Positions 8,255-24,026 of a stretch of 64,000 bases of DNA are shown one piece after another. Both the position numbers and the translations under genes were made by a program. Source of the stretch: a virus; the IMG/VR virus record IMGVR_UViG_3300028610_001490, positions 1-64,000 of that record; one strand, written 5' to 3'. The notes beneath the pieces are model-generated. The model searched no databases and had not been told where the DNA came from. It worked only from the letters and a program-made list of their open reading frames with translations. The stretch's first letter is position 1. Each line of letters begins with the position of its first letter.

Positions 8255-8280
8255 AATTTTCTCCAAATAAAACCATCATT

Positions 8281-8505
8281 TTATTCTGGTTTAAGATCGC
8301 CTAATTTTTTTCCGCAAAATGGACAATAACGCATCATCATACTGTCGTCATGTAATGATGGTCTAATAAAAAGATTGTAAACAGAATTGATTCCGAAATA
8401 ATTTTTATAAATAGCAACACTTATTTCTTCACAGCAAGCATTTGCGGTTTCATGCCTTGTTACATCTTTTATTTTCATTTGTTTTGGACTAATTACTTTG
8501 TTCAC
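8281..8505 (-). CDS. Small protein with C-terminal CxxC
   Basis: 74 residues ending RYCPFCGKKLGDLKPE, a half zinc ribbon often seen at the C-terminus of small phage proteins. The start is GTG one base beyond the junction motif with no GGAG. Function unknown. Confidence 0.65.
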   Translation of the reverse strand: MNKVISPKQMKIKDVTRHETANACCEEISVAIYKNYFGINSVYNLFIRPSLHDDSMMMRYCPFCGKKLGDLKPE

Positions 8506-8556
8506 AATAAAACCCTTTTTTCATCTTGAATTTTTAATTCTTTTATTTTCATTATT

Positions 8557-8748
8557 TTACGTTAATAAACAAGATATTTTCATTTGAAAAATAGTAATAT
8601 AAGATTTATAAATATAGGTATAGGTTTGAATGTAACTAATACAAGATTTTGCTTCATAGTAATCTATTAAAAATATAATACATATAAGAAAAAAAATAGA
8701 AGTTGCCACCACAGAACGAAATATAATCTTTTTGTGTATTTTATTCAT
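8557..8748 (-). CDS. Small membrane protein
   Basis: 63 residues from the ATG after GAGAAAT; one hydrophobic segment (about residues 11-28) after a basic N-terminus, then a Tyr/Ile/Thr-rich tail. Overlaps the stop of the gene upstream. Function unknown. Confidence 0.5.
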   Translation of the reverse strand: MNKIHKKIIFRSVVATSIFFLICIIFLIDYYEAKSCISYIQTYTYIYKSYITIFQMKISCLLT

Positions 8749-8953
8749 ATTTCTCAAGATGTTTTTTTAGTTTATCAACCATTTCTTTTTCAATAGGACT
8801 ATTTTCTAAAGTAGGATCTTTATCGACATAATACCAGCCACTTTGCTCTAAATCTTTTTCAAAACAAATCCCAATTCTAAAATCATTGCTCACAAACTCA
8901 ATCGCCAAGCTTCCATCATCACATTCATAATAATCTAAAGAAACTTTACTCAC
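8741..8953 (-). CDS. Hypothetical acidic protein
   Basis: 70 residues, acidic; begins with GTG one base after a junction motif whose distal arm is degenerate. Not recognised. Confidence 0.6.
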   Translation of the reverse strand: MSKVSLDYYECDDGSLAIEFVSNDFRIGICFEKDLEQSGWYYVDKDPTLENSPIEKEMVDKLKKHLEKYE

Positions 8954-8962
8954 AATAAAATC

Positions 8963-9127
8963 TCATTCCATCTCGTCATAAATTAAATATTCTTCATCAC
9001 ATGAAAAACATTTTTCTTTTGTCATCTTGTTTTCCAAATTGTCTTTAAAAATAACATTGCAACTATAGTAACACTTAGGACATTCCCATCTAAAAACAGT
9101 TTCGCTTTTAGCTTTTATCTTTTTCAA
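8963..9127 (-). CDS. Small zinc-ribbon protein (TTG start)
   Basis: 54 residues with cysteine pairs CPKCYYSC and CFSCDEE, a compact zinc ribbon. The TTG start is five bases after GGAG, and overlaps the TGA of the gene upstream, which supports this start. Function unknown. Confidence 0.6.
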   Translation of the reverse strand: MKKIKAKSETVFRWECPKCYYSCNVIFKDNLENKMTKEKCFSCDEEYLIYDEME

Positions 9128-9267
9128 TAAATCTCCGTATATAAATTTTCATTATCATTTTCTAGTTTTTTAATTTCATTTTTTAATTCTTTATTTTCTT
9201 TTATAAGACAAGCGATTTTTTTATTCAAACTCTTTAATTTTTTCCCACACTTTTTACAACGTTTCAT
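9124..9267 (-). CDS. Small CxxC/coiled-coil protein
   Basis: 47 residues: MKRCKKCGKK, then a Lys/Glu/Asn coiled coil. Its TGA overlaps the next gene's TTG start. The start codon lies only four bases after the -10 box of the promoter at 9271-9299, so from that promoter the ATG would sit at or just before the mRNA 5' end; the real start is uncertain. Confidence 0.45.
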   Translation of the reverse strand: MKRCKKCGKKLKSLNKKIACLIKENKELKNEIKKLENDNENLYTEIY

Positions 9268-9270
9268 ATA

Positions 9271-9299
9271 AGCATACCACACTTTACTCACAATGTCAA
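9271..9299 (-). promoter_or_regulatory. Sigma-70-type promoter
   Basis: TTGACA (9299-9294) and TATGCT (9276-9271), 17-bp spacer, placed at the end of the glycan cassette. It would drive the small zinc-protein genes leftward. Confidence 0.7.
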
Positions 9300-10072
9300 G
9301 CGATTCTGGATAATCCCCTTTTCTCTAAAATACTATTTTGTGCTTTCATAGTTTCTAAAGTTGCGAACTCTTTATAACGATCATAAATAGTTGGTAACAG
9401 CGTATTGAATTCTGATCGGCTACTTGACATTGTGCTACCATCTTGCCTCCAAGTATACTCACAAGTAGCAACCCTCATATGATGAAAATCATGATCTCTT
9501 GATATTCGAATCCACAAATCCCAATCCTCATATGCCTTAAAATCTTCATCGAATAAACCAGCCTTTTCAAGACAGTCTTTTCTATGCATTACACACAATA
9601 CTGGTGTTATATTTTGAATCAATAAAAGATCTTTAGAAAAATCTACATCATATGCCATGTGTCTACCAATTGTTGTATAAAATCCATTGGGCTGTATCGT
9701 TTGCATATTTTGAATAGCATTACTATATATAACATGAATATCATTGGCTTCCATTTTCTCTACAAGCAATCTAACATGTTCTGGGAAATACCAATCATCA
9801 TCATCCAAATAGCAAATATATTTTCCCGAAGAATTTTTAATTCCTGTGTTTCTAGCCGCACCAAGTCCTTTATTTTTTTCATGGTTAAAGTATTTGATTC
9901 TACAATCATTCAATGTATCTACTACAATTTGAGCATCTTCACCGTAATCATTTATTACAATAATTTCTAAATTTTTATAGGTTTGATTTAAAACACTTTC
10001 AATCGTTTTAGATAACATATTTAAACGATTGAACGTTGGAACAACTATACTAACTAAAGGTGCTTCATTCAT
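9296..10072 (-). CDS. Family 2 glycosyltransferase
   Basis: About 258 residues, GT-A fold. The N-terminal PLVSIVVPTFNR strand, the metal-binding YLDDDDWY motif (about residue 90) and the downstream YEDWDLW, which supplies the catalytic acidic residue, are the hallmarks of inverting GT2 enzymes. It would move a sugar from a nucleotide donor to an acceptor at the membrane or on a protein. I use the internal ATG (ATGAATGA, overlapping the upstream TGA) rather than a GTG four codons earlier. Last gene of the cassette. Confidence 0.9.
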   Translation of the reverse strand: MNEAPLVSIVVPTFNRLNMLSKTIESVLNQTYKNLEIIVINDYGEDAQIVVDTLNDCRIKYFNHEKNKGLGAARNTGIKNSSGKYICYLDDDDWYFPEHVRLLVEKMEANDIHVIYSNAIQNMQTIQPNGFYTTIGRHMAYDVDFSKDLLLIQNITPVLCVMHRKDCLEKAGLFDEDFKAYEDWDLWIRISRDHDFHHMRVATCEYTWRQDGSTMSSSRSEFNTLLPTIYDRYKEFATLETMKAQNSILEKRGLSRIA

Positions 10073-10847
10073 TATCTTTTTCACTAAATTCCATTATGGG
10101 AAATCTATTCTCTATTTTTGTAGATATTGCCAAATAATTTGAGTGTAGATAATTTTCCATTTCATCTATCCATTCCGACATATGTAAAAGCCCACTAGGA
10201 ACTATCCTAAACAACGCATAATTATTTTTTAATAAACCAACAGTTTCTTTTAGTGTAGTTCTTGCATCTATAAAGCAACCACCATATTCAAACTGGATAT
10301 AATCAATGGTCTGCTTTTCCATCATTTCTTTAGCTCCATCGATTACACGAAACTCAGCGCCCTCTACATCTATTTTTAGATAGTCAATATGCTTTATTTT
10401 TCTTTCTTTACAAAAATAATCAATTGTAATTCCATCAACATATATTATTTCTTTTTCAATACTGTTAGCTGCTTCAACATTGGGTCTACCAAAAAGATTA
10501 CTCATTTCTGCAAGCTGCGGGTTATTTTTATACCAGTAAAAAGCAGTTTTACCACATTCATTTCCAATGATGTTATTTAATACTTCAACATTATTTCGTA
10601 GTGCAAAGAGTTGATAAGCTGCCAAGAATGCGTCTGGAACTGGCTCAAAACAGTAAATAAACTTTGGAACCATAATACATAATGCAATCTGTGTCCATCT
10701 ACCAGAGCTTGCTCCAACATCAAATATAACACTGTCTCTTTGTAAAAATCCATGAAGAACATGATATTCACCATTGCTATATATATTGTCGTCTCCTATG
10801 CCTAGCCCCTTCGTTTGTTCTGTATACGGATAAACCTGGTATTCCAT
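10065..10847 (-). CDS. FkbM family methyltransferase
   Basis: 260 residues. SAM-binding motif IFDVGASSGRWT (about residues 39-50) and the FkbM signature DYLKIDVEGAEF (about 154-165). FkbM enzymes O-methylate sugars or polyketides, so it probably caps or decorates the glycan made by this cassette. One of three divergent FkbM genes here (also 12428-13078 and 13796-14458). Ends with TGA overlapping the GT2 start. Confidence 0.9.
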   Translation of the reverse strand: MEYQVYPYTEQTKGLGIGDDNIYSNGEYHVLHGFLQRDSVIFDVGASSGRWTQIALCIMVPKFIYCFEPVPDAFLAAYQLFALRNNVEVLNNIIGNECGKTAFYWYKNNPQLAEMSNLFGRPNVEAANSIEKEIIYVDGITIDYFCKERKIKHIDYLKIDVEGAEFRVIDGAKEMMEKQTIDYIQFEYGGCFIDARTTLKETVGLLKNNYALFRIVPSGLLHMSEWIDEMENYLHSNYLAISTKIENRFPIMEFSEKDNE

Positions 10848-10854
10848 TATTTTT

Positions 10855-11643
10855 TTACTCCTTTATTATTATGTTTAAATTATGCTTTTTACCCTCAAGC
10901 AAATCACGATAGCGCTCTATTATAATTTTTACATTTTTTGTTGTAGATGCCACCCAAATATCATGGCTTACTGGATTGTTTCTAGTTTTACCCCATGAGG
11001 CAGGAGAATCATAATTGATTACATATGCGCCCACTAGCCAACCTTTCTTTTTATAAGCCCTAAATCCTATGTCCTTATCATCACAGTCGATAGGAGCAAA
11101 CTCTTCATCAAGATAATCCAATGTCTCTAGTTTTTGATGGTCAAACAATATTGGTGTTCTTACTATGATATCCCTTATTCCCAATGTGTTTCTAGGGCTA
11201 TCAACATCTTTTCCAAACACATCAAAACAATGAATTGTTTCATCAACTATTTTTTCATTCTGTGCATTTCTTCCAGTAACACCTAAAAGATCGGACACTT
11301 GTAAAAATGGTTTTAACATTCTTTTATCAAAATCTTTTTCTAAAATTTGACAATCATCTTGCACTGTCATAATGTATGGATAAGAGGCTGCCCTAAATGT
11401 TAAATTATTGGCAATAACTTCATTTACATTGCCAGCATATAAAAATTTTGTTGGTATTTTACATGTGTTACCAACAATCCCTTTTACTATCTCTTCTGTT
11501 GTATCTATACATCCATCAAAAAGAATAATAAGTTCTTTTACATTAGCAGACATATTTTGAATAATGCCATTCATTACCCTTGCAGCCAATCGCTCCTGAT
11601 TGTACATAGATATACAAAGTGAAATTGAAAAATCTTTATTTAT
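10855..11643 (-). CDS. Glycosyltransferase, GT2-like (probable AUA start)
   Basis: Close paralog of the gene at 11640-12431. The segments NGIIQNMSANVKELIILFDG, NEVIANNLTF and MTVQDDCQILEKDFDKRM align along the full length; QDD is the likely DxD metal site. With the only ATG (11607) the protein would lose its first beta strand. Reading on upstream gives NKDFSISLCISMYNQ, matching the paralog's N-terminus, and reaches ATA at 11643-11641, which overlaps the upstream TAA (ATAA) and lies five bases after GGAG. From ATA it is 262 residues versus 263 in the paralog. Confidence 0.8.
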   Translation of the reverse strand: MNKDFSISLCISMYNQERLAARVMNGIIQNMSANVKELIILFDGCIDTTEEIVKGIVGNTCKIPTKFLYAGNVNEVIANNLTFRAASYPYIMTVQDDCQILEKDFDKRMLKPFLQVSDLLGVTGRNAQNEKIVDETIHCFDVFGKDVDSPRNTLGIRDIIVRTPILFDHQKLETLDYLDEEFAPIDCDDKDIGFRAYKKKGWLVGAYVINYDSPASWGKTRNNPVSHDIWVASTTKNVKIIIERYRDLLEGKKHNLNIIIKE

Positions 11644-12431
11644 AAAGACTCCTTGATTATAATGTCTTGTGTATGTTTTTCCCCATTAATTAAATCTGCA
11701 TGTCTTTCTATAATCATTTTTATATTTTTTATTCTAGATTTGTCCCAGATTGCATTTCGTATTGGCCTAGACTGTCTTGTTTTGCCCCACAACAAAGGAG
11801 AATCGTAACCAACCATAAACGCCCCAACTATCCATCCATGTTCCCTATGAGCCCTAAAACTAATATCATGGTCATCGCCATATGTTGGCGCAAATTCTTC
11901 GTCAAGATAATTCATTGCTTCCAGTTTCTGATGGTCATACATAATAGGGCCCCTTATTATAATTTCGCGAACTCCTAAAATATCTCTAGGACTATCAACA
12001 TCATGCCCAAAAAGATTATAAAAACTCAATTCACCATTTTCAATACGTTGATCTTGAGCGTTTCTAGCACTTACTCCTAAAAGATTTTCAACTTTAAAAA
12101 AGGGAAGCATTATTCTCTTATCAAAATCTTTTTCCAACAATAACATATCGTCTTGAATAGTTAATATGTATGGACATGTTGCATTCTTAAATGTTAAATT
12201 ATTAGCCTTAACTTCCCAAATATCATCTGCATAAATATATTGTGTTGGAACTTTACAACCATTCATTATGCTTTTCACAATGGTATCAGATCCATCATCA
12301 CATCCATCAAAAACAAATATAATTTCTTTTACATTTTTGGATATATTTTTTATAATGCCATTAACTATACTTGTTATTATTGGTGCTTGATTATGTATAG
12401 ACATACAAACCGAAACTGAACAATCTTTCAT
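11640..12431 (-). CDS. Glycosyltransferase, GT2-like
   Basis: 263 residues, GT-A-like fold: VSVCMSIHNQAP N-terminal strand, IFVFDGCDDGSD, and LTIQDDMLLLEKDFD with QDD as probable metal site. Related in sequence to the neighbour at 10855-11643, so the pair arose by duplication. It overlaps the FkbM gene upstream by 4 bp. Confidence 0.82.
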   Translation of the reverse strand: MKDCSVSVCMSIHNQAPIITSIVNGIIKNISKNVKEIIFVFDGCDDGSDTIVKSIMNGCKVPTQYIYADDIWEVKANNLTFKNATCPYILTIQDDMLLLEKDFDKRIMLPFFKVENLLGVSARNAQDQRIENGELSFYNLFGHDVDSPRDILGVREIIIRGPIMYDHQKLEAMNYLDEEFAPTYGDDHDISFRAHREHGWIVGAFMVGYDSPLLWGKTRQSRPIRNAIWDKSRIKNIKMIIERHADLINGEKHTQDIIIKESL

Positions 12432-13078
12432 TTATCTTTCCAATAAATATTGTTTACAAAATCACTATAAATCCTTTCATAGTTATTTCTTGCAAAGTAT
12501 TTATTTATTTCGTTTGCAAATCTTCCCAATGGTTTAATAGGGTGATTTTCATGAGCCTCAATAATAACCATTTTTGGTTTCCACAAACCAATATTGAATT
12601 GTTGCATAATTGCAAGTTCTGTACCTTCTGTATCTATGGATAATAAATCAAATCCAAAAGGCACGTTGATGCATTGCTCAAGCAAATCATTTAAAGGTAA
12701 ACTATCCATTTCAGTATATTGTATATATTGATTAATCCAATCACATTCCTTATAATATCTAATTTGTTCTGCTGAGGTGGTTGAAAGAGTTGCATTCATT
12801 GAAATCATGACTATACCCCTCTCCCCAATGGCTGCTCTTATGCATGTTACTTGATGTTTTTTATCTTTATATGTTTTAAGTAATTCCTTAAAATTGAGTG
12901 GGTTTGGCTCAACACATATGCCCGACCACCCCACATCTACCAATCCTGAAACATTGCTAAAATCGTATCCATTATAGGCACCAATCTCAACAAAAAATCC
13001 ATCTGTTTTATTATCAAAATATTTTTCATATATTTCTGCCAGCCCTTTTATATCGCAATTATCAGCTATTTTATACAT
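12428..13078 (-). CDS. FkbM family methyltransferase
   Basis: 216 residues. SAM site GFFVEIGAYNGYDFSNV (about residues 27-43), EPNP acid loop, and DLLSIDTEGTEL FkbM motif. Ends in ATGA overlap with the glycosyltransferase gene. Probably a sugar O-methyltransferase. Confidence 0.88.
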   Translation of the reverse strand: MYKIADNCDIKGLAEIYEKYFDNKTDGFFVEIGAYNGYDFSNVSGLVDVGWSGICVEPNPLNFKELLKTYKDKKHQVTCIRAAIGERGIVMISMNATLSTTSAEQIRYYKECDWINQYIQYTEMDSLPLNDLLEQCINVPFGFDLLSIDTEGTELAIMQQFNIGLWKPKMVIIEAHENHPIKPLGRFANEINKYFARNNYERIYSDFVNNIYWKDK

Positions 13079-13079
13079 T

Positions 13080-13799
13080 TTATTCTCCTCGTTCTATAAG
13101 ATGAATTCCGTCCCGTTCATGCACAATATGAAATGGATATAGGTAATACGGTAGGTTATATTTTTCTCTGAGTATTGAGAATATACTTTGCTCATGTCTA
13201 TGATCATCAAATCTAGGCAAATTTTCCATTTCGTTTTTAATCATTGTATCATAATCTACAGCAAAATTTACCCATTCTTGTACAAAATTTATTGTAAAAT
13301 CTGTTCTATAAAACACCATAATGTTTACTTGCATCTGGGGGGCATCCCAATACCTTGACTCATCACAGTTCATTTTAACAAACATATCTTTATGGGTAAA
13401 ATTTTTATTATAATATACAATATTATGATGTTCATGACAAAATATGTTGTTGGTGGTGGCAATATCTATTAGTGATCTGGGATTAGCCATAATAACATGA
13501 TTAGAGTCGCACCACATAAGCACATCTTTATCTTCTATCTTGTTTAAAGCATCTTGAATAACTATAGGTTTAAAGCACCAACCATAGCTATCTTCTTTTA
13601 ATACCCAAGGATTATTTTTGCAATATGAAGAGTTTTCAAACCAGTCATTATCATAATAAAAGCAATCATCAAAGTAAGGCTTGGCAGATTCAAAAAGCCT
13701 ATGAACTTCTGACGTATAATCTCGATGAATTCCATATGATTCGTTATGGCGATTTTTTCCACGTTCCAAGCCTCCAAAAGATACAATATATTTTTTCAT
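13080..13799 (-). CDS. Putative glycosyltransferase
   Basis: 239 residues. The segment YGWCFKPIVIQDAL followed by KDVLMWCDSNHV matches the layout of surface-glycan transferases in which a W-KP-I motif precedes a Y-x-D-x-G/N metal-binding loop. Cluster position supports a glycosyltransferase role, but the family is not certain. Abuts the FkbM gene downstream and overlaps the one upstream by 4 bp. Confidence 0.65.
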   Translation of the reverse strand: MKKYIVSFGGLERGKNRHNESYGIHRDYTSEVHRLFESAKPYFDDCFYYDNDWFENSSYCKNNPWVLKEDSYGWCFKPIVIQDALNKIEDKDVLMWCDSNHVIMANPRSLIDIATTNNIFCHEHHNIVYYNKNFTHKDMFVKMNCDESRYWDAPQMQVNIMVFYRTDFTINFVQEWVNFAVDYDTMIKNEMENLPRFDDHRHEQSIFSILREKYNLPYYLYPFHIVHERDGIHLIERGE

Positions 13800-14458
13800 A
13801 TCAATTCTGCTAAATAATTATGTATTTCTTCGTCTTGAACCCCCCACCCCTTGGGCAAAATGTCCAAAGATCCATTATAAACCCTATAGCCCCTTGATTG
13901 CAACCATAATACAATATCTCCCGCCGTATAACCACTATATTTATTGCAATCACCAGATTCAAATTGAATATATTTTATTTGTTTACTATTTATCATAGTC
14001 TGAGCACTTTTTAATACTGACATTTCACTGCCTTCAGTGTCTATTTTAAGATAGGTAATTTTATTAGGCAATGCAACCAAATCCAAAGCAACAAAATCAA
14101 CAATAACTTCAGCCATAACACGCGGCTTTTTAAAAAAATCTTCACGATAATAAAGACTAGAACATCCTGTTTCTGGTTTCATTTGATAAAAAAGTTTTTT
14201 AGTCAAGAATGCATTTATTATACCCAAATTAAACAATTGCACTCTTTCATCTTCTTTATATTTCTCTAACCCTATATTATATGCATCTCTATTTGGCTCA
14301 AATCCAAAAACTTTTGATTTTACAAACCTATCTAAAAATTCTTGGGTAAACACTCCAACATTAAATCCTACATCAATCAATATGGCATCTTGGTTTTCAG
14401 GAATTTTTCTCCTAACATGATCAAGATAAAGACCTTCTTCTGGCATAATACTACTCAT
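13796..14458 (-). CDS. FkbM family methyltransferase
   Basis: 220 residues. LIDVGFNVGVFTQEF SAM site (about residues 28-42), FEPN acid loop, and YLKIDTEGSEM FkbM motif. Third methyltransferase of the cassette; its divergence from the other two suggests a different position or sugar as substrate. Confidence 0.88.
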   Translation of the reverse strand: MSSIMPEEGLYLDHVRRKIPENQDAILIDVGFNVGVFTQEFLDRFVKSKVFGFEPNRDAYNIGLEKYKEDERVQLFNLGIINAFLTKKLFYQMKPETGCSSLYYREDFFKKPRVMAEVIVDFVALDLVALPNKITYLKIDTEGSEMSVLKSAQTMINSKQIKYIQFESGDCNKYSGYTAGDIVLWLQSRGYRVYNGSLDILPKGWGVQDEEIHNYLAELI

Positions 14459-14460
14459 AG

Positions 14461-15255
14461 TTATTCCATCTCTCTTAAAAATTTCTCTTGTTGTTGTGGG
14501 TTCATAGACATAAAATTATGTGGATAATTGAGCAACATATCTTTTGCATTTTGTTGCCACTGATAAGGAAATAAGTTTGGTAATTGCGAAATAATGTATG
14601 ATCTATATACTACTTCTAATTTTTTTCTGCGTTCAGATTGAAAGGACGAATCCTCTCTTACTCTATAATAAAAAAGATCTGATGCAATATGTTTGCCATA
14701 CCAACCCTTTGCCCCAAGTCTCAAATATAATTGGTAGTCTTCTAGGTAGCAGAAATTATTCAAATCATATCCACCAATATCCACATATGCTGCTTTTCTA
14801 AATAGCGAACAGTAACTTATAAAATTACTTTGTATGAGTTGAAAAAGAGAATATTCTAGAGAAGGCGTTCTGTTAAATAACTGTTGTGCAAAATACACTG
14901 TATCAACATAAGCGAATCCAACATTTGGGCATTTTTCTAATGTTATTAATGTCGTATCTAAAAACACTGATTGAATTTTATCATCTGGATCAAGAGGCAT
15001 ATAAAAATCATTATTTGATTTCATTATTCCTAAATGTCTAGCTTTTGTGGCTCCAATATTGTTTGTTCTTATTACATCTATAGAATAATCAGAATATTTT
15101 TCACATACTTCCTTTATTGGTTTATTTAAGTCATTATTAGAACTATCGTTAATTATTATTATATCCCAGTATTTAAATGTTTGATCAATAACGCTTTTAA
15201 TTGCTTCTTCTAAATAATCTGCTTTATTATAGCAAGGAATAATTACACTAATCAT
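14461..15255 (-). CDS. Family 2 glycosyltransferase
   Basis: 264 residues, GT-A. N-terminal MISVIIPCYNKADYLEEA, the IINDSS nucleotide loop, the PLDPDDKI DxD motif (about residue 90) and a YLEDYQLYLR acidic segment are all as in GT2 enzymes. It overlaps the upstream gene by 4 bp. Confidence 0.9.
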   Translation of the reverse strand: MISVIIPCYNKADYLEEAIKSVIDQTFKYWDIIIINDSSNNDLNKPIKEVCEKYSDYSIDVIRTNNIGATKARHLGIMKSNNDFYMPLDPDDKIQSVFLDTTLITLEKCPNVGFAYVDTVYFAQQLFNRTPSLEYSLFQLIQSNFISYCSLFRKAAYVDIGGYDLNNFCYLEDYQLYLRLGAKGWYGKHIASDLFYYRVREDSSFQSERRKKLEVVYRSYIISQLPNLFPYQWQQNAKDMLLNYPHNFMSMNPQQQEKFLREME

Positions 15256-16103
15256 ACTAAATCTACTTCCATATGTACAGAATTGGATATGAGTCCATCA
15301 AATTTTTTAGGATCAATTCTAATACCATTATTATAAAACCATAAAAGATTTCTTGCAGAATGGTTTACTTTATTTCCAGATCTGTTGTCTGGAGCAACAT
15401 CCTGCACCTTATTACATGGATTACAAAAGGCTACAGACTGTTCATAGCAAGATAAAGTTGGCATTTTATTTAAAAATGTATTCTTGTCCGAATCCATATA
15501 TACATTGGCTATACTATTCATTAAAGATTCTAGCTCATTAGGATTTTTAAAATCATACATTTTTAATGGCTCAATGAAATTTTTCACTCTATATACAGAA
15601 CTAGATACCTCTGCAGGATATCCAAAATCTCCATCTGCATTTGTCCAATTATATCCTAACATACTACTAGTAACTTCTGCTACAAATGGAGTATCTTGTA
15701 TTCTATCAAGAGTATAACAATAATTTGTATTCTTTCCTAACCTTAAAGAAAATCCAACTGTGTTCTTGCGACTATCTAAAACATGAACAATCTTTTTTAA
15801 ACTAAAATCATGAGTAAAAATACAATCATCCACCAGAAATAAAACGTGCGTTTTATCTTTGAGAAGATTCAACACATCTTGTTTGAAATTAATTTCTTTA
15901 ACTAAATGTGTATAATCTCCCCATTCAATGTCTAATTGACTATATGCGTCTTGATATTCTGGATCGCAAGTATAAATAGTTGTTATATCCATCTCTTTCC
16001 AAAAATTATATGAAGAAACATCTGAATGGCGATGAAAAGATGATAAACAAAGGTCAAGTTGCAAGGGGCGATTGCGACTGAATACAATAACTGCCATGTT
16101 CAT
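15252..16103 (-). CDS. Putative glycosyltransferase
   Basis: 283 residues. AVIVFSRNRPLQLDLCLSS at the N-terminus and LFLVDDCIFT with VDD as metal site suggest a GT-A enzyme. C-terminal domain not recognised. It overlaps both neighbours by 4 bp. A perfect ATAAAA-N6-TTTTAT string at 15839-15856 lies inside this coding region and encodes DKTHVLF. Confidence 0.75.
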   Translation of the reverse strand: MNMAVIVFSRNRPLQLDLCLSSFHRHSDVSSYNFWKEMDITTIYTCDPEYQDAYSQLDIEWGDYTHLVKEINFKQDVLNLLKDKTHVLFLVDDCIFTHDFSLKKIVHVLDSRKNTVGFSLRLGKNTNYCYTLDRIQDTPFVAEVTSSMLGYNWTNADGDFGYPAEVSSSVYRVKNFIEPLKMYDFKNPNELESLMNSIANVYMDSDKNTFLNKMPTLSCYEQSVAFCNPCNKVQDVAPDNRSGNKVNHSARNLLWFYNNGIRIDPKKFDGLISNSVHMEVDLV

Positions 16104-16798
16104 ATAGTATATCCTGATTTTTGTGCAGCATCATAAAACATTTTGACTGTTTCTAAAGAAAAATCATTCAAGTTTTTTCCTAACAATGGAATTTTATCTA
16201 TCAGGGATTTTGGCATTGTTATAATATGACAATTGCTTTTATCTGCCAATACTACATCATATACTTGTCTTGGAGAAGCCCACAATAATTGCTGGTTTTC
16301 ATATTTGGAACGCATCCATGCAGCCATATCAGCCATAATAGGAAAGGGGGCTACTCCTGCATCTGCTATTCTACCAGCAAACACAGAAACAATTCCTTTG
16401 TTTTCTCCAATAGCTAACATAGCATCTTTGGCTTGAGGTGTAGTAAAAACAGCAGTGACATTTACTTTGATTTTTTGAAGACATAAATGATTGATCTTAC
16501 CAACTGTAAATTCGCCTCTTGTATTGGTTATAGGAATTTTTACATATACGTTTTTTCCCCAAGATGCTATTTCTTTTGCTTGTTCTTCCATCTCATCTAA
16601 ATTATCAGAGAAAACTTCAAATGAAATTGACTTTTTTACAATATGTCTCAGTGCACTTTGAGCAAATTGTTTATAATCTGTAATGCCAGCTTTTGCCAAT
16701 ATGGAGGGATTTGTAGTAAACCCTGACACAATTGGATTTTCATTCAACTCAATCATTTCTTTCAAATCAGCCCCATCAGCAAAAATTTTAGCTCTCAT
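16100..16798 (-). CDS. Transaldolase family protein (TalC/FSA-like)
   Basis: 232 residues, the size of the small transaldolase/fructose-6-phosphate aldolase subfamily. GFTTNPSIL is at residues 26-34; the Schiff-base lysine is K87 in NVYVKIPITN; ISVFAGRIAD-like sequence follows. Transaldolases exchange dihydroxyacetone units to make sedoheptulose 7-phosphate, the precursor of the heptose pathway encoded next to it. Its position between glycosyltransferases and gmhB supports this role; a fructose-6-phosphate aldolase activity cannot be excluded. Confidence 0.88.
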   Translation of the reverse strand: MRAKIFADGADLKEMIELNENPIVSGFTTNPSILAKAGITDYKQFAQSALRHIVKKSISFEVFSDNLDEMEEQAKEIASWGKNVYVKIPITNTRGEFTVGKINHLCLQKIKVNVTAVFTTPQAKDAMLAIGENKGIVSVFAGRIADAGVAPFPIMADMAAWMRSKYENQQLLWASPRQVYDVVLADKSNCHIITMPKSLIDKIPLLGKNLNDFSLETVKMFYDAAQKSGYTI

Positions 16799-17331
16799 TT
16801 ATACTCCTTCATTATCAATGGAAAAATTTCTTTCACACTTGAAACTGTATGTGTTTGTTTTGAAGGTCGTAATTCATCTCCATATTGATAGTCTATAAAT
16901 ATTGTTTGGCATCTTGCTCTGTATCCGGCTTCAATATCTTTCCATCTATCACCAACCATCCAAGATTGACGCAAACTTATATTAAATATTTCTGCGGCCA
17001 AAAAAAGAAATCCAGGCATTGGCTTTCTACAATTACAAAGATCATCATCGTCATGTGGGCATACAAAAATTGATCTTATATATGGCGACCAACTAGCAAT
17101 TTTGGCATTGAGTTTACCTGCTTCATCTTGGGTAATTTTACCTCTTGCAATATCTGGCTGATTGGTTATGCCAATTATAGTAAAATCATCTTTCCATAAG
17201 TCAGTTATGACAGACAATATTCCATCAACTGGAACAGCTTCTTCAATAGTTAGTGGAGAGGCTGGTAATCCATCTTTCACAATTGCCTTATTAATAATGC
17301 CATCCCTATCTAAAAATACAGCCTTATTCAT
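16795..17331 (-). CDS. gmhB: HAD phosphatase, GmhB-like
   Basis: 178 residues from the ATG at 17331, which overlaps the upstream gene by 8 bp; a longer frame upstream is only a shadow of the isomerase gene. FLDRDGIINK is the HAD nucleophile motif, ITNQPDIARG motif II, and CPHDDDDLCNCRKP the zinc loop typical of GmhB. VGDRWKDIEAG is motif IV. GmhB removes the C7 phosphate from heptose 1,7-bisphosphate. Confidence 0.88.
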   Translation of the reverse strand: MNKAVFLDRDGIINKAIVKDGLPASPLTIEEAVPVDGILSVITDLWKDDFTIIGITNQPDIARGKITQDEAGKLNAKIASWSPYIRSIFVCPHDDDDLCNCRKPMPGFLFLAAEIFNISLRQSWMVGDRWKDIEAGYRARCQTIFIDYQYGDELRPSKQTHTVSSVKEIFPLIMKEYK

Positions 17332-17914
17332 CCATTGACTCCCATTTAGTTTGTGATCTTTGTAATTTGGGATGGGATACAAGTAAGTGAAGAACAACAG
17401 ATTGAAAAGCTTCTGTATGAGGAGTAATCCTATCCTCATGAACAATAGAAACAACAACGCATGCCTGAGCATTTTGTTTAGTGTAGCCACCGTCTCTACC
17501 AACAACACCCAGAACTCTAGCCCCCACTGTTGTAGCACAATCTATTGCCTTGACCAAGTTAGAACTTATTCCAGTCGCCCCACCTCCAACAGAAAAAATA
17601 AGAATTGCATCGTTTGAATTGATTTTACTTGTTCTTAGCCATGATGAAAACACACACTCAAACCCACTATCATTCGTTCTTGCGGTTAATTCTGCCACAT
17701 TGTCTGTAGGAGCATACGACTCTATACCACAAATTTTTCTAAAATCATTTACAGCATGGCTAGAAATTGAAGAGCCACCACCATTCCCAAGAATAAACAA
17801 CCTGCCTTTCGCCTTGCGCACATGATACAAAATTTCAACCATAGATTCTATTTCTTCATGATCAAAATTATTAATAATAAACCTTGATTCTTCTAAATAT
17901 TTTCTAGCAAACAT
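17324..17914 (-). CDS. gmhA: SIS-domain phosphoheptose isomerase, GmhA-like
   Basis: 196 residues, the usual GmhA length. FILGNGGGSSISSHAVNDF is the sugar-phosphate loop; LIFSVGGGATGIS the second SIS loop; HTEAFQSVVLHLL carries the C-terminal catalytic residues. GmhA converts sedoheptulose 7-phosphate to D-glycero-D-manno-heptose 7-phosphate in the cytosol. Flanked by gmhB- and hddC-like genes, abutting the latter by one base. Confidence 0.88.
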   Translation of the reverse strand: MFARKYLEESRFIINNFDHEEIESMVEILYHVRKAKGRLFILGNGGGSSISSHAVNDFRKICGIESYAPTDNVAELTARTNDSGFECVFSSWLRTSKINSNDAILIFSVGGGATGISSNLVKAIDCATTVGARVLGVVGRDGGYTKQNAQACVVVSIVHEDRITPHTEAFQSVVLHLLVSHPKLQRSQTKWESMDE

Positions 17915-18616
17915 TTAATTTCCTTTAGTTTTTGTTATATACTCCTCAAAATCTTTCAATCCTTCTGGAGATCCTATCTCATAAAATCTGGATTTCATTT
18001 CATATCCCATAATTCTATTGTGTTGATGGTTATAAACTTCACTCAAGTCATATTTGATATTAGGTTTTAACACATCAAATGCTTCTTTATTAAAAACAGA
18101 TAATCCATAATCAATGTGTTCCATTTCAGTTGTGCTGCTTTTCTTGCCATATTTTATAATTCGTCCATCCCTATATAAAACATTGCTCTTATCATATTTG
18201 TTTTGATTTTTATAAACCGTCATCATGCCCGATTTGTTCCAACATAGCTGTACAAAAGCATATCCAACTTCAACAAAGTCTACTGGCAAATAACTATCAC
18301 CATACATTACAAAAAAACATTCTCCCAGTAGTGGAAGCGCTTTTTTTATTGCTCCTGCAGTTCCCAATGGCGTCCGTTCAATTGAATAAGATATTTTTAA
18401 TCCGAATCTTTGTGTCCCTACAACATCAATTATTTTATTTGCTAAATGCCCTACACACAATACGACATTTTTAAATCCATTTTTGCTCAATAATTCTAAC
18501 TGGTAAAAAATAAATGGCTTGTTGGCAATTGTTATCAATGATTTAGGAACATTATTTCCTTGTTCTATTCGTGTTCCCAAGCCACCACAAAGAATTGTTA
18601 TTGTTGGAAGTTTCAT
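17915..18616 (-). CDS. Sugar-1-phosphate nucleotidyltransferase, HddC-like
   Basis: 233 residues. ILCGGLGTRIEQ...PKSLI is the nucleotide-binding signature and FVMYGDSYLPVDF contains the metal-binding aspartate. Size and context (HddA, GmhA, GmhB neighbours) point to D-glycero-alpha-D-manno-heptose 1-phosphate guanylyltransferase, giving GDP-heptose. Which nucleotide is used is inferred from context. Confidence 0.8.
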   Translation of the reverse strand: MKLPTITILCGGLGTRIEQGNNVPKSLITIANKPFIFYQLELLSKNGFKNVVLCVGHLANKIIDVVGTQRFGLKISYSIERTPLGTAGAIKKALPLLGECFFVMYGDSYLPVDFVEVGYAFVQLCWNKSGMMTVYKNQNKYDKSNVLYRDGRIIKYGKKSSTTEMEHIDYGLSVFNKEAFDVLKPNIKYDLSEVYNHQHNRIMGYEMKSRFYEIGSPEGLKDFEEYITKTKGN

Positions 18617-19587
18617 ACTATTCGTTGACTACCCTCAAAATCAAATGAAAAAACTAGCTCTTGCAAGCTATTTTTTTTCATATATTGTTTTAGTTTCCTT
18701 TTGTTTTCTATATAGCCAAGCAAAAATCCACCATTGCCAGATCCAACCAATTTCATTCCTATTGCGCCATTATTTAAAGCATCATTTCTAATTTGCTCTA
18801 TTTTGGGAGAGGTGTTGGTTCGCTCTTTTTTATTGTCCCATTGTACATTAAGCATTTCAGCAAATTCTTGCATCTTTCCTTTCTCAAGAAGTTTTTTTGA
18901 TAATATTCCTATTTCTTTCAAATTCATAAGATTAGATAACATTGCCTTATCATTATTTTTCGTAGCCTTGTCTTGAAAATACAATACGTTGTTGGTATTA
19001 TGTTCAATATTTGTATAAAACAACATTAGATTCTCTTGAAGTTTTTCCAATGTGTCATGTGAAATATTGAGTGGAACATGTTTGACATTTCCGTTCTTCT
19101 GAAATTCTAAACACATAATTCCGCCTAACGAAGATATATATTCATCTTGTTTGCCCTGTATCATACCCAATTTATCAATATTAATATTGCAAGCTAGTTC
19201 AGCAATTTCATGTGGCAATGTTGCTATATTTTTATGCAAATATAAAGCCTTTAAAAGAGCTACAGTAAATGCACCGCTACTTCCCAATCCACTTCCATTG
19301 GATGGCACATCGGCATGAGAAACAATTTCAAGTTGGGGTGTTTGAAAATCGAGTAATTTTATACATTCCTTTATAATTGGATGTGAAATATCTTGAGGAG
19401 ATTTTACATTTTCTGTTTTAGAATATTTTAAAATAATTTTTTCTGTAAAAGTTCTATGAATGCTTATATAAATATATTTATTGATTGCTGCAGAGATGCA
19501 AAATCCGCCATGATTGTGAGAAAAACTTCCCAAATCAGTTCCACCTCCGCCAAGCGTAATTCTCAATGGGCTACGAACAATAATCAT
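18613..19587 (-). CDS. hddA: GHMP kinase, HddA-like
   Basis: 324 residues. MIIVRSPLRITLGGGGTDL is the N-terminal signature of heptose-7-phosphate 1-kinases of the HddA type, and PSNGSGLGSSGAFTVALL is the GHMP phosphate loop; C-terminal GMKLVGSGNGGFLLG completes the fold. It would make D-glycero-alpha-D-manno-heptose 1,7-bisphosphate. Overlaps the HddC-like gene by 4 bp and the HNH gene by 17 bp. Confidence 0.88.
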   Translation of the reverse strand: MIIVRSPLRITLGGGGTDLGSFSHNHGGFCISAAINKYIYISIHRTFTEKIILKYSKTENVKSPQDISHPIIKECIKLLDFQTPQLEIVSHADVPSNGSGLGSSGAFTVALLKALYLHKNIATLPHEIAELACNINIDKLGMIQGKQDEYISSLGGIMCLEFQKNGNVKHVPLNISHDTLEKLQENLMLFYTNIEHNTNNVLYFQDKATKNNDKAMLSNLMNLKEIGILSKKLLEKGKMQEFAEMLNVQWDNKKERTNTSPKIEQIRNDALNNGAIGMKLVGSGNGGFLLGYIENKRKLKQYMKKNSLQELVFSFDFEGSQRIV

Positions 19588-20065
19588 TGGGCAATTCCAA
19601 TAGATGCTTCCAAGACTTCTCTTTCCTTATATTGTATATAGTATCAATACAAACGCCATACTTACTAGCAATATTTTTAACTGTGTCAGACCTACACTCC
19701 TCTCTTATGTTCATTACCTTATTTTCATCAAGTTTTGCATAATGACTTTCTGAGCCACAAAGACTTCTTTGCCTTCCTTTATTGTCCCTATCTCTTACAT
19801 TATCAATATGAGTTCCTAAATCTAAATGTCTTGGATTGCAACAGGGCGGATTGTCGCATTTATGCATAACAATAAGCCCATCTATTTCTTTTTTATAAGT
19901 TATCAAAAATGAAAATCTGTGTGCTCTTACAATCTTTTTGCCCACGCCAAGTCTGCCATAATTCTTTCTGTCTTTGAAGGCTTTCCACTCCCAACACTCA
20001 TCCTCAGATTTTTTATCCACATACCCCCAAAATCTTTCAATATCTTTTTGATCATATTTTATCAT
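19571..20065 (-). CDS. HNH endonuclease
   Basis: 164 residues. CWEWKAF, then AHRFSFLI, then MHKCDNPPCCNPRHLDLGT form the HNH_3-type zinc nuclease core (about residues 24-92), followed by a C-terminal helix-turn-helix (ASKYGVCIDTIYNIRK). A homing endonuclease inserted between two sugar genes: its ATGA overlaps the oxidoreductase stop and its 3' end overlaps the kinase start, so it keeps the operon's coupled translation. Confidence 0.88.
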   Translation of the reverse strand: MIKYDQKDIERFWGYVDKKSEDECWEWKAFKDRKNYGRLGVGKKIVRAHRFSFLITYKKEIDGLIVMHKCDNPPCCNPRHLDLGTHIDNVRDRDNKGRQRSLCGSESHYAKLDENKVMNIREECRSDTVKNIASKYGVCIDTIYNIRKEKSWKHLLELPNDYCS

Positions 20066-21051
20066 CTATTCACCTTATAAACTTTCTCTACAACATCCAA
20101 AACCATTCCAGCATGATATAATCCTGGCTCTGGGCTTCTGTTTTCAGTAATATCTCTATAAAATTCTTTATATTCAATTCCCCAAGAGTTATCTGGTTTT
20201 GGATATTCATAATGTGTAATATCTGGAATGCCTAAATCTGGAGACATCTTGTAATATGAAAGTCTCTCAATACCGTAAGATCCGCCTAAGCCCTCAATTT
20301 GAAGTTTTCCAGTTCTGCCATATATTTCAAATGAAAACATATTGCGCCATTCAGTACAGCTTGCATGGAGAAATGCCATTTGATCATTTTTAGTTCTGAG
20401 CCACATAAAGCCATTATCTTCTACAGGCATATCCCAAAAATAGGTGTTTGTAAATCCACCAACTTCATTAAAATTTTCCAAAAACATTAGAGAAAGGTCA
20501 ATTAAATGGCTTCCCTGGTCGAGAGTTTCGCCGCCTCCTGATAGTGCTAGATTAGATCTCCATTCTTTGTTATATCCTCTTCTTCCGCCATGACCATATC
20601 TACCTCGTATAAACATAATTTGTCCAATGCCATTATAATATTGAATAATTTTTCGTGCCTTCATAATGGCTGGATGATAACGATGATTATAACCTATCCT
20701 TACTTTAACATTGTTTTCTGTGGCTGCAGCCATAAGTTCAACAATCTCTATGGTACTTATTCCTCCTGGTTTCTCTATAAAAACATGTTTGCCAGCACTG
20801 ATTGCCTTCAAAGCATTGGGAGCCAAATAAGCATTTGGAGTACAAATAAATACAGCATCAACTGTTGATAACATGCCGTCTGTTGTTGTGGTTGCAATTG
20901 CACTCGCCCCATCTAATCCATTAACCATCTTCTGTGCTTTGTTAATATCAGAATCTACACAAAGTTTTAATGATCCATATGGTAAATATTTAGCACGCTT
21001 ATTTCCCATAAGGCCACACCCAACAATCCCAAAGCGCAAACTATCTACCAT
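20062..21051 (-). CDS. Gfo/Idh/MocA family oxidoreductase
   Basis: 329 residues. FGIVGCGLMGNKRA Rossmann motif (residues 7-20), FIEKPGG catalytic EKP motif (about 93-99) and a C-terminal alpha/beta domain with GGGETLDQGSHLIDL. NAD(P)-dependent oxidation or reduction of a sugar ring; probably acts on a nucleotide-linked sugar intermediate of the cassette. Confidence 0.88.
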   Translation of the reverse strand: MVDSLRFGIVGCGLMGNKRAKYLPYGSLKLCVDSDINKAQKMVNGLDGASAIATTTTDGMLSTVDAVFICTPNAYLAPNALKAISAGKHVFIEKPGGISTIEIVELMAAATENNVKVRIGYNHRYHPAIMKARKIIQYYNGIGQIMFIRGRYGHGGRRGYNKEWRSNLALSGGGETLDQGSHLIDLSLMFLENFNEVGGFTNTYFWDMPVEDNGFMWLRTKNDQMAFLHASCTEWRNMFSFEIYGRTGKLQIEGLGGSYGIERLSYYKMSPDLGIPDITHYEYPKPDNSWGIEYKEFYRDITENRSPEPGLYHAGMVLDVVEKVYKVNR

Positions 21052-21886
21052 AATTTTTATCCAATGAATTTGGAATACCCCTGCAATCTCTTGCAGTCAA
21101 TCTTCGCAAAGTATATACATTGCTTTCTATAATTTTTTGTTTTATTCGCAATATGTCTTCCCAATTGTCCCACATTGCGCTCATTGTTTTTCCAGTTATG
21201 CCATTGCTTTCTTCTGAAAGTAAAAACATAGCGAGATTAATCGCATCGCTACTAACAGAGGGGTTACGTTCTTTTACTCTTTGGGCTTTTTGATATTCTT
21301 CTTTTCCCACCAAATCAATTCCCGCAACAAGAGTTTCTTCAGTCATATTTGAATACATTATGCCAGGAGAGACACAATTAACATCTATACCTATCTCTTT
21401 CAATTCTTCTGCAAGATTTTCAGACAGCCTAACAAGACCAGTTTTAGAAACTGCATAGGGAGAAAACATTGGTCTGGGAGAGACAGCACCTCCGCCAGAC
21501 AAATTGATTATTTTACTTCCTATTTTCATTTTAGGTATCAATATTCTCATTAACTGAAATGGTGCAGTTAAATTCGTTTGAATCGCCTTATGCCATTCCT
21601 TAGATGAAAGCATCCAAGTGTTATTAATTTGTCCTTGAATTGCTGCATTATTAATTAGGGCATGAACAATTGGGAACGCAGTAGTTAATCTTAAACAAAC
21701 ACTTGAAGTTTTTTCTTCTTTAGATAAATCACATTTGAACCACCTAATTCTTTTACTTATCAAATCTGGTTTAGTTCTAGAAATTAAGACAAGATTCGCT
21801 CCTTCATCATGGCATCTTTGTGCTATTGCCAAGCCCAATCCTCTACTGGCTCCTGTAATTACAATGTTCTTATCTTGTAGTTTCAT
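21041..21886 (-). CDS. Short-chain dehydrogenase/reductase
   Basis: 281 residues. NIVITGASRGLGLAIA cofactor motif, NNAAIQ, active-site serine in IINLSGGGAV and YAVSK (Tyr-Lys pair). Classical SDR with an extra 35-residue C-terminal tail. Likely reduces a keto-sugar. Overlaps the Gfo/Idh gene by 11 bp and the epimerase by 4 bp. Confidence 0.88.
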   Translation of the reverse strand: MKLQDKNIVITGASRGLGLAIAQRCHDEGANLVLISRTKPDLISKRIRWFKCDLSKEEKTSSVCLRLTTAFPIVHALINNAAIQGQINNTWMLSSKEWHKAIQTNLTAPFQLMRILIPKMKIGSKIINLSGGGAVSPRPMFSPYAVSKTGLVRLSENLAEELKEIGIDVNCVSPGIMYSNMTEETLVAGIDLVGKEEYQKAQRVKERNPSVSSDAINLAMFLLSEESNGITGKTMSAMWDNWEDILRIKQKIIESNVYTLRRLTARDCRGIPNSLDKNYGR

Positions 21887-22827
21887 AAATTATTCACACA
21901 ATCCTTTTCTATTAAAAAATCCAAAGTCTCTTGTATTGATTCTTTAATAGTATACTTTGGTTTCCATCCTAACGACATTATCTTTGCGATATCTAACCAA
22001 ATAAATGAATTATCTCCCTTCCAACTTTCTCCAGTAAAAGAAAATTTAGGAAGTAAATTTAAATGTTCAGCTACAACTCTTGCACAATCTGTTACACTTA
22101 AATATTCATCTGTTCCCAAATTAAAAATATTTACTTGCTCTTTTGATTTATCAATTGCTACCAACATTCCCTCAATACAGTCTTGCACATTCAAATAACT
22201 TTTACAAATGGTTCCATCTCCAATTATTTCAAGATTATAAACATCTTCTCTCAATTTATTGTAAAAATCTACAACAAATCCCTTATGGTAATTTTTCCCA
22301 AGCAATGACACAAACCTAAATATCCAACTTTGAAATCCATATCCTTCACAATATGCTTGTATTAAACTTTCTCCAGCTAATTTAGAAGCTCCATATAATG
22401 ATGTTTGAATTGGAAATGGCGCATCTTCTGGAATAGGAACATCTTTTGTTTCTCCATATACAGACCCAGTAGAAGCAAACATAATATTTTTTATTTTATT
22501 TTTTCGCATTGCTTCTAAGATTGTAAATGTTCCCATTGTATTTTGATTTAAGTCTTTTTCAGGAGTTTTTAATCCATACCTAACATCTGCATTTGCAGCC
22601 AAATGAAAAATAAAACCACAATCTTTCATTGCCCATGTTAAATTTTCAAAATCTAGTATGTCACCATTTATCATACAAAAATTAGAAAATTTATATGCGT
22701 CATATAGATACTTGCTTTTCCCAGTACTAAAATTATCATATCCTACAACTTCATATCCATCAGTTAGCAGCCTATCAACTAGGTTGCTTCCAACAAATCC
22801 TGCAGCGCCAGTAACAAACGCTTTCAT
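21883..22827 (-). CDS. NAD-dependent nucleotide-sugar epimerase/dehydratase
   Basis: 314 residues, extended SDR. FVTGAAGFVGSNLVDRL NAD motif, ASTGSVYGE with catalytic serine, YGASKLAGE with Tyr-Lys. Similar to UDP-glucose 4-epimerase-type enzymes. The exact substrate is unknown. Confidence 0.87.
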   Translation of the reverse strand: MKAFVTGAAGFVGSNLVDRLLTDGYEVVGYDNFSTGKSKYLYDAYKFSNFCMINGDILDFENLTWAMKDCGFIFHLAANADVRYGLKTPEKDLNQNTMGTFTILEAMRKNKIKNIMFASTGSVYGETKDVPIPEDAPFPIQTSLYGASKLAGESLIQAYCEGYGFQSWIFRFVSLLGKNYHKGFVVDFYNKLREDVYNLEIIGDGTICKSYLNVQDCIEGMLVAIDKSKEQVNIFNLGTDEYLSVTDCARVVAEHLNLLPKFSFTGESWKGDNSFIWLDIAKIMSLGWKPKYTIKESIQETLDFLIEKDCVNNL

Positions 22828-23912
22828 TCATTATATCCTTTATCAATAATTTCTTTGCATGTATTTAAAATCTTAGATACATTCTTATCTATAGTTTGAT
22901 TCATTGCAAATTTATATGGTTCTTCTTTAGCAAACTTGCGATGATCATCAAGATTTTGTATCATTTCTTCTATTGTTGTGTACCAAATATTTTGTTGATT
23001 TTTTATTACTTTCCCATACTGTTTAATATCATCATACGATTTATTATCTGATCCAATCCAAGGAATTTTCAACAACATATATTCAAGTGGCTTAATCCAA
23101 GAACGTCTTTGATCATATTGTCCGCAGAGTGGAGCTAACCCAATGTCAAAATTAGCTAAAACTTTAGGCCATTCAGAAAATTTAACAAATTTATTATAAG
23201 TTTTCTTATCGTCTGGCAAATTAATTTTATCATATACTCTCTTATCGCCAGCAATCATAATCTTTACTTGAGGATAATTTTTACATATTTTTTGTAATGC
23301 TTTTATTATTCCACTCTCTTCAAAACTTTGCACATGAGAAAGACTTCCGCCCCATCCTATGATTATATTATCACCATTGTCTTCTTTTATAACATTTTTA
23401 TAATGAGTAATATCGACATAGTTAGGAACATAATATGCATCTGAGTACCTATCCCAATCTTTCATCAAAACTTTAGACGGTAACATAATTCCCGCCACCA
23501 TTCTCAGCCCCCACTTAAATTGTGTTAGGGGCAATGGCTTTATCTCAACATCTACCTCTCCCTCTGGAGTTTTATTTTTTGCAGATCCTAAAACCCAAAA
23601 TGGATAGGCAATGTTAGTGTCACGCATCATATCATATGCATCATCAAAGTTTGCAACTATCATTTTATTACGAACTTTCCAGTACATAATCATTGTCAAA
23701 TTATCACCAAAGAAATTTCTTTCAATGATAATTATGTCTGCCTTGTTACATAGGTTTTGTACTTCTGGTGAATTTGCAGCAAATTGACCAGAATTAATTA
23801 AATAAGCCTCATTTTTCTTTGTTTTATTAATGGCATCAACTGGCATCACACATCTCCAATTGGTGGTATTATATTCCTTGTAGGAATCCGCATAAACATA
23901 TACAATTATCAA
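22824..23912 (-). CDS. Glycosyltransferase, GT-B type
   Basis: 362 residues. The C-terminal half has IIGWGGSLSHVQSF, FDIGLAPL and WIKPLEYMLLKIPWIGS, the donor-binding pattern of GT4-like enzymes with the conserved glutamate in PLEY. First gene of the cassette after tRNA-Asp; ribosome site GGAGATAAAA. Confidence 0.8.
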   Translation of the reverse strand: MIIVYVYADSYKEYNTTNWRCVMPVDAINKTKKNEAYLINSGQFAANSPEVQNLCNKADIIIIERNFFGDNLTMIMYWKVRNKMIVANFDDAYDMMRDTNIAYPFWVLGSAKNKTPEGEVDVEIKPLPLTQFKWGLRMVAGIMLPSKVLMKDWDRYSDAYYVPNYVDITHYKNVIKEDNGDNIIIGWGGSLSHVQSFEESGIIKALQKICKNYPQVKIMIAGDKRVYDKINLPDDKKTYNKFVKFSEWPKVLANFDIGLAPLCGQYDQRRSWIKPLEYMLLKIPWIGSDNKSYDDIKQYGKVIKNQQNIWYTTIEEMIQNLDDHRKFAKEEPYKFAMNQTIDKNVSKILNTCKEIIDKGYNE

Positions 23913-23953
23913 TTTTATCTCCTCATTCCACGCATATTGTTAAAAGCAAAAAC

Positions 23954-24026
23954 GCTGATGACGAGATTTGAACTCGCAAGCCTTCTGTTCGACAGACAGA
24001 TGTGCTACCATTTACACCACACCAGC
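23954..24026 (-). tRNA. tRNA-Asp(GTC)
   Basis: 73-nt cloverleaf: acceptor GCTGGTG/CATCAGC (one G-T pair), anticodon stem TCTGT/ACAGA with loop CTGTCGA, T arm GCGAG/CTCGT with loop TTCAAAT. CCA is not encoded. It heads the glycan operon. Confidence 0.92.

Follow-up and report, generated by a model that had tools for sequence, protein, structure and literature searches.

A 64,000-nucleotide stretch of viral DNA (positions 1 to 64,000 of the IMG/VR virus record IMGVR_UViG_3300028610_001490, in the following referred to as the window) bears on its minus strand an eight-gene operon, running from 22827 to 16100 in the order epimerase, short-chain dehydrogenase (SDR), Gfo/Idh/MocA oxidoreductase, GHMP kinase, nucleotidyltransferase, SIS isomerase, HAD phosphatase and transaldolase, with one HNH gene inserted. 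The virus is a tailed phage, as deduced from its terminase, portal and replication genes and its tRNAs. By analogy with known pathways, the operon may encode synthesis and tailoring of a nucleoside diphosphate (NDP)-octose that is subsequently transferred, an interpretation whose chances we rate as even. In the proposed route, the transaldolase would catalyze the committed first step by moving a C3 unit from fructose 6-phosphate (or sedoheptulose 7-phosphate), the putative donor, to a C5 aldose phosphate, and the resulting octulose 8-phosphate would be converted by the isomerase, a long-loop variant of the SIS family, to octose 8-phosphate. The GHMP kinase would then place a phosphate onto C1, the HAD phosphatase would remove the one at C8 and the nucleotidyltransferase would form the NDP-octose, with guanosine diphosphate (GDP) as the presumed nucleotide by analogy. 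The epimerase, SDR and Gfo/Idh/MocA enzymes are predicted to tailor the NDP-octose, their order of action being likewise a presumption, before neighboring glycosyltransferases would attach the sugar to a glycan and FkbM methyltransferases would methylate it; the acceptor could be a host surface glycan, a virion protein or another target.

The same five enzyme classes act in lincomycin biosynthesis, where LmbR forms octulose 8-phosphate from ribose 5-phosphate and fructose 6-phosphate or sedoheptulose 7-phosphate by moving a C3 unit (PMC5854111), LmbN isomerizes the octulose, the kinase LmbP, the phosphatase LmbK and the guanylyltransferase LmbO perform the activation, and the epimerase LmbM, LmbL and the oxidoreductase LmbZ/CcbZ act next (PMC4351081, PMC12945683). 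In contrast, the characterized GDP-heptose route of Campylobacter consists of four enzymes starting from sedoheptulose 7-phosphate (PMC10680097). Hence, an NDP-octose is favored over an NDP-heptose as the product of the phage operon.

Linkage of the transaldolase to a long-loop isomerase

Judged by its sequence, the protein encoded at 16100-16798 is a genuine transaldolase. It reaches 290.1 bits against TIGR02134, above the equivalog cut-off of 281.95, matches Pfam TAL_FSA (9.6e-38) and belongs to the small 'staph-type' subfamily. Residues D8, T28, N30, E61, K87, N113, T115, S138, F140, R143, S175 and R177 correspond to D17, T33, N35, E96, K132, N154, T156, S176, F178, R181, S226 and R228 of TalB, and these twelve active-site residues, including the Schiff-base lysine, are kept in 99-100 of 100 relatives. 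As the phosphate-binding Arg and Ser positions are retained, donor and acceptor are probably ordinary sugar phosphates. An identity as fructose-6-phosphate aldolase was rejected due to Phe140 and Glu61 in place of Tyr131 and Gln59 (FsaA numbering). Transaldolases 47-49% identical to the phage enzyme are also present in two Staphylococcus phage records, OR844993 and MG543995, where they probably represent host housekeeping DNA.

The SIS isomerase shows the GmhA fold in an AlphaFold2 model (predicted local distance difference test score 93; template-modeling score about 0.8), and its residues H53, D57, E168 and H176 are found at the GmhA positions H61, E65, Q172 and H180, so that the catalytic set of GmhA/HddA-type isomerases (His, acidic, Glu/Gln, His) is present together with the SIS fold. 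The phosphate loop, however, reads SVGGG-(insertion)-S, replacing STSGNS of GmhA and departing from the short-loop pattern S-T/S-S-G-N-S. In a sample of 434 genomes from Chloroflexota, Myxococcota and Alphaproteobacteria, the insertion in long-loop SIS isomerases comprises 4-9 residues; it sits at the counterpart of the GmhA phosphate site, corresponding to the far end of the substrate. With 53.5 bits against the gmhA model TIGR00441 (equivalog cut-off 209), the enzyme is not an ordinary GmhA, and across 151 Chloroflexota genomes a wide gap sets its family apart: its lowest-scoring member reaches 297 bits and the best SIS protein outside it 111 bits. The exchange of H-E-Q-H for H-D-E-H was dropped as a hallmark of the long-loop type because ordinary SIS proteins linked to HddA share it, as does that of Caulobacter phage Cr30. 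A divergent SIS protein (32% identity) in the loci L219/L242 combines loop insertion and adjacent transaldolase as well. The L242 cluster (7873-10653, Chloroflexota) has the order nucleotidyltransferase-SIS-HAD-transaldolase, and its distant SIS protein, bearing a longer loop insertion, is possibly nearer to the lincosamide type. Single stop codons inside the matched SIS stretch were seen in the alphaproteobacterial genomes G399, G433, G371, G416 (TAG), G419 and G408 (TGA), which may correspond to the gene end lying within the match.

Within the 434 genomes, a transaldolase gene is found at a distance of up to 1.5 kb from 20 of the 33 long-loop SIS genes, whereas this applies to none of the 43 short-loop genes (Fisher p=5e-10), 11 of which adjoin an HddA-type kinase gene. 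Some of the long-loop genes have a transaldolase slightly further away (L216/L240; G021). Similarly, for 17 bacterial genomes encoding the long-loop SIS, distances read from listed coordinates put a transaldolase gene no more than about 10 kb away in 16 cases, while about 15 canonical gmhA matches (>100 bits, 10 genomes) are all without a transaldolase at this distance. Canonical GmhA is also encoded in 10 of these 17 genomes and a second transaldolase elsewhere in 14. An initial interpretation of the window from its letters (the sequence-only reading) had seen the transaldolase as an addition making the phage independent of host sedoheptulose 7-phosphate. Such a supply role predicts that bacteria would not need the gene; yet the same operon transaldolase is present in bacteria which mostly hold another one, so that this explanation is weak. 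The exclusive linkage rather indicates an association between the product of the transaldolase and the isomerase's enlarged phosphate end. A transaldolase associated only with the long-loop type would point to a substrate that it makes itself and that is not otherwise available, most simply octulose 8-phosphate, and would thus favor an octose over a heptose.

Activating enzymes and distribution of the operon

The five enzymes deduced in the sequence-only reading (transaldolase, isomerase, kinase, phosphatase and nucleotidyltransferase) are all encoded at 16100-19587, head to tail with each gene overlapping or abutting the next. The interval proposed there, 15252-19587, does hold them but starts with a sixth gene, and the unit extends upstream to 22827. 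Regarding the suggested families, the transaldolase is the only one to exceed a curated equivalog cut-off, whereas the other four proteins remain far under those of the heptose models. For the kinase, clearly a member of its superfamily, the best NCBIfam model is HddA (NF049969, 1.2e-44) with 153 bits versus a cut-off of 600, and the nearest solved structures are 3k85, 4usm and 4n3o. The nucleotidyltransferase is best matched by HddC (NF049965, 1.3e-28) with 100 bits versus 300, the MurU model being second at 97 bits; among solved structures, a 6-deoxy-D-mannoheptose pathway protein, 6jq8 and 5xhw, comes closest to it. The phosphatase reaches 107 bits against the GmhB model NF006506 (cut-off 178), falls into the HAD-IIIA subfamily and shows the same CPH...CNC zinc-loop pattern as E. 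coli GmhB when both sequences are read.

The operon also occurs in many bacteria and in hundreds of other viral contigs. Among 80 bacterial loci, defined as the best GTDB matches to the SIS family and including many cut contigs, transaldolase (71), kinase (70), nucleotidyltransferase (67), phosphatase (67), epimerase (61), Gfo/Idh/MocA (50) and SDR (44) genes recur, and 19 loci (Chloroflexota, Pseudomonadota, Chlorobiota and others) have exactly the phage order of all eight genes. The operon is also located on the annotated plasmid of Lawsonia intracellularis and on a plasmid of Rhizobium jaguaris. The phage Gfo/Idh/MocA protein and epimerase are 48-55% and 52-59% identical, respectively, to the operon copies of most full-operon bacteria. 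The viral loci (n = 79) come from IMG/VR contigs encoding a relative of either the transaldolase or the SIS isomerase and were compared with the phage genes; they contain the transaldolase in 76, the kinase in 67 and the phosphatase in 65 cases; the SIS-transaldolase pair is found in most of the SIS-bearing viral contigs examined. A search of 50,697 annotated phage records at E 1e-5 did not reveal a long-loop SIS. Since the gene order recurs across many bacterial phyla as well as in independent phages, the arrangement is not due to chance. The operon is shared with the bacterial gene pool, and a tree of concatenated SIS, transaldolase and kinase sequences, in which the phage is on a long branch, cannot be explained with fewer than five switches between bacteria and viruses, implying repeated uptake by phages or exchange with bacteria.

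The inserted HNH gene lies between the Gfo/Idh/MocA and kinase genes, a place where bacterial operons have no such gene, and a relative with 35% identity resides among the glycosyltransferases of the phage contig L111. This contig retains the core of kinase, nucleotidyltransferase, SIS, HAD and transaldolase genes (58, 45, 56, 43 and 49% identity, respectively) and beside it counterparts of the gene at 15252 and of several transferases, while its epimerase, SDR and Gfo proteins are just 27-36% identical to those of the phage. Across the viral relatives, the constant part is SIS plus transaldolase, and the activation enzymes are exchanged: a small CTP_transf_like/HldE-C-type nucleotidyltransferase is encoded within 9 kb of the SIS gene in 39 viral loci and directly adjacent in 26. 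Interchangeable activation modules in phages thus comprise a GHMP kinase with either an HddC-type or a small HldE-C-type nucleotidyltransferase, or a bifunctional HldE-like protein, the latter found near long-loop SIS and transaldolase in L130. In the large viral group L015-L022, L120-L186, the gene for a CTP_transf_like nucleotidyltransferase of 130-160 amino acids (aa) neighbors SIS-HAD-transaldolase together with genes for a GHMP kinase and a group 1 glycosyltransferase, representing a second, compact form of the pathway among phages. In the L130 protein (12150-13622, minus strand), the nucleotidyltransferase domain precedes the PfkB kinase domain, which is the reverse of the HldE order.

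Octose, heptose or another sugar

Several points weigh against an octose as product. Heptose-pathway models are the best family matches for the kinase, nucleotidyltransferase, phosphatase and isomerase, although the library search brought up no octose model; a transaldolase can use several acceptors; the long-loop SIS proteins mostly form one clade, so that the samples are not fully independent and the correlation between linkage and loop length is partly common ancestry; and the literature searched holds no octose report for any organism with the operon. The literature search also gave nothing relevant on transaldolases in glycan operons or on heptose-related auxiliary metabolic genes of phages.

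The main rival, which we consider unlikely but by no means negligible, is an NDP-heptose: the transaldolase would form sedoheptulose 7-phosphate, the SIS isomerase would convert this to heptose 7-phosphate, and the HddA-, GmhB- and HddC-like enzymes would yield GDP-heptose. In favor of this, the best profile and solved-structure matches of the four enzymes are proteins of heptose pathways, the isomerase has the GmhA fold, and sedoheptulose 7-phosphate is obtainable by transaldolase from fructose 6-phosphate and erythrose 4-phosphate. However, the four matches are far from the equivalog level, transketolase is the normal source of sedoheptulose 7-phosphate, and no transaldolase accompanies ordinary GmhA/HddA clusters within the genomes sampled. 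Moreover, operon hosts often also hold canonical gmhA and another transaldolase, and the phosphate loop is remodeled only in the transaldolase-linked SIS type. Of the sequence-only reading, the reaction series is maintained, in which a ketose phosphate of the pentose-phosphate type passes through isomerase, anomeric kinase, phosphatase and nucleotidyltransferase steps and ends as an NDP-sugar with a chain longer than six carbons, while heptose itself is less favored. We regard as rather improbable an NDP-sugar other than an octose or D-glycero-D-manno-heptose, resulting from a different acceptor aldehyde or being a differently configured heptose or hexose. Acceptor specificity is not readable from sequence, the L111 tailoring genes are strongly diverged or different, and viral relatives swap the activating enzymes (small HldE-C-type instead of HddC type; bifunctional HldE-like in L130), all compatible with such a product, whereas the conserved phosphate-binding positions of the transaldolase are not suggestive of an unusual acceptor. 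The HNH insertion could also be taken as a sign of a degraded or unused bacterial polysaccharide island passing through the phage, but this is very improbable considering that none of the genes is disrupted, that active sites are conserved and gene overlaps tight, that related phage contigs retain the core and several of the same transferases and that the G+C content of the operon equals that of the remaining phage sequence.

Returning to the NDP-octose interpretation, it is conceivable, though somewhat short of an even chance, that a widespread, hitherto undescribed surface-glycan operon of many phyla, repeatedly captured by phages and equipped with interchangeable activation modules, makes NDP-octose by lincosamide-type chemistry, and that aldo-octoses are a common but overlooked component of glycans in bacteria and phages. 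If so, many environmental bacteria as well as many phages would synthesize octoses, and the SIS loop insertion together with a neighboring transaldolase would flag octose clusters in genomes. The phage would then hold a complete, self-contained route from phosphates of central metabolism to a rare surface sugar of a type that can be expected to modify receptors or virion glycans.

Phage context and related systems

The source record comprises 88,920 bases, with terminase and portal genes located beyond the 64-kb window, and the phage additionally encodes a DNA helicase, a polymerase processivity factor, a tRNA nucleotidyltransferase and eight tRNAs. The tRNA nucleotidyltransferase gene is of the CCA-adding type (50751-52196, minus strand) and is carried along with the eight tRNA genes. 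Megablast with positions 10000-24000 gave no near-identical phages.

Features of the operon and its surroundings in the window
Feature	Position	Strand	Support
GT2 glycosyltransferases	9296-10084, 10855-11607, 11640-12431, 14461-15255	-	
FkbM methyltransferases (three)	10065-10847, 12428-13078, 13796-14458	-	
Protein without family assignment, within transfer/methylation block 9296..15255	13080-13799	-	
Probable glycosyltransferase	15252..16103	-	inference; no family match
Transaldolase, 232 aa	16100..16798	-	TIGR02134, Pfam TAL_FSA
HAD-IIIA phosphatase, GmhB/LmbK-like, 178 aa	16795..17331	-	NF006506 1e-30, HAD-IIIA domain
SIS-domain ketose/aldose phosphate isomerase, long-loop subfamily, 196 aa	17324..17914	-	SIS_2
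Sugar-1-phosphate nucleotidyltransferase, HddC/LmbO-like, 233 aa	17915..18616	-	NTP_transferase
GHMP sugar kinase, HddA/LmbP-like, 324 aa	18613..19587	-	GHMP N and C domains
HNH endonuclease-like gene, outside pathway	19571..20065	-	HNH_3
Gfo/Idh/MocA oxidoreductase, putative tailoring enzyme	20062..21051	-	family match
SDR, putative tailoring enzyme	21041..21886	-	adh_short 7e-38
NAD-dependent nucleotide-sugar epimerase, GalE-like, putative tailoring enzyme	21883..22827	-	profile match; nearest solved structures 8rdg, 3ehe
Probable group 1 glycosyltransferase	22824..23912	-	Glyco_trans_1_4 3.7e-05 (under gathering score); PHROG 7162 glycosyltransferase 1.5e-12

As had been proposed, glycosyltransferases and FkbM methyltransferases surround the pathway genes; of the latter there are three. 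The gene at 15252-16103 overlaps the transaldolase stop by 4 nt, and its product, giving no Pfam, NCBIfam or PHROG match, is probably a glycosyltransferase; homologues sharing a conserved VDD motif are encoded by the phage contigs L111 (47%) and L208 (34%), and the structure model (confidence 47) gave unusable fold matches. The group 1 glycosyltransferase upstream of the epimerase has a 43% identical counterpart in L111. The phosphatase gene, overlapping the SIS gene stop, starts at an ATG inside the listed GTG open reading frame, which reaches 17538 and is too long. Outside this region, a nucleotide-sugar dehydrogenase of the UDP-glucose/GDP-mannose type (TIGR03026 over cut-off) adjoins a nucleotide-sugar epimerase with GDP-fucose synthase as best NCBIfam model, under cut-off (921-2237 and 2430-3407, minus strand).

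Among phage systems, cyanophage TalC is also a transaldolase of the TAL_FSA family, albeit with about 30% identity to the enzyme described here, and is known as a carbon-metabolism gene rather than as a member of a sugar-nucleotide operon. The kinase/SIS sets of Caulobacter phage Cr30 and cyanophages likewise include a phage-borne HddA-like kinase and, in Cr30, a phosphoheptose-isomerase-like gene, but have no adjacent transaldolase, and the Cr30 SIS loop is short. The loop insertion is absent from short-loop SIS isomerases, among them E. coli GmhA. The described four-enzyme GDP-heptose route shares four enzyme classes and, presumably, the types of reaction with the five-class set of the phage, but lacks a transaldolase (PMC10680097), and the phage proteins are well under the equivalog cut-offs of that route.

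In the literature searched, lincosamide biosynthesis is the sole described route to an activated aldo-octose. Matches on Streptomyces plasmids were rejected as relatives of octose clusters, one being hygromycin-type and the other an unrelated cluster. In the GDP-octose pathway of lincomycin and celesticetin, transaldolase, SIS, GHMP, HAD and nucleotidyltransferase proteins are encoded together as in the phage, a likeness at the level of enzyme classes, and also there an epimerase and an oxidoreductase follow the activation set. The dehydrogenase LmbL is comparable to the nucleotide-sugar dehydrogenase, of the same UDP-glucose/GDP-mannose-type class as the one in the window, that lies inside the operon of Lawsonia (L188) and of the viral contig L025. 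In contrast to the Streptomyces antibiotic cluster with its genes for a transaminase, ergothioneine S-transfer and condensation, the phage-type operon is of glycan type, accompanied by glycosyltransferases and FkbM methyltransferases and distributed among phages and mostly Gram-negative-type bacteria.

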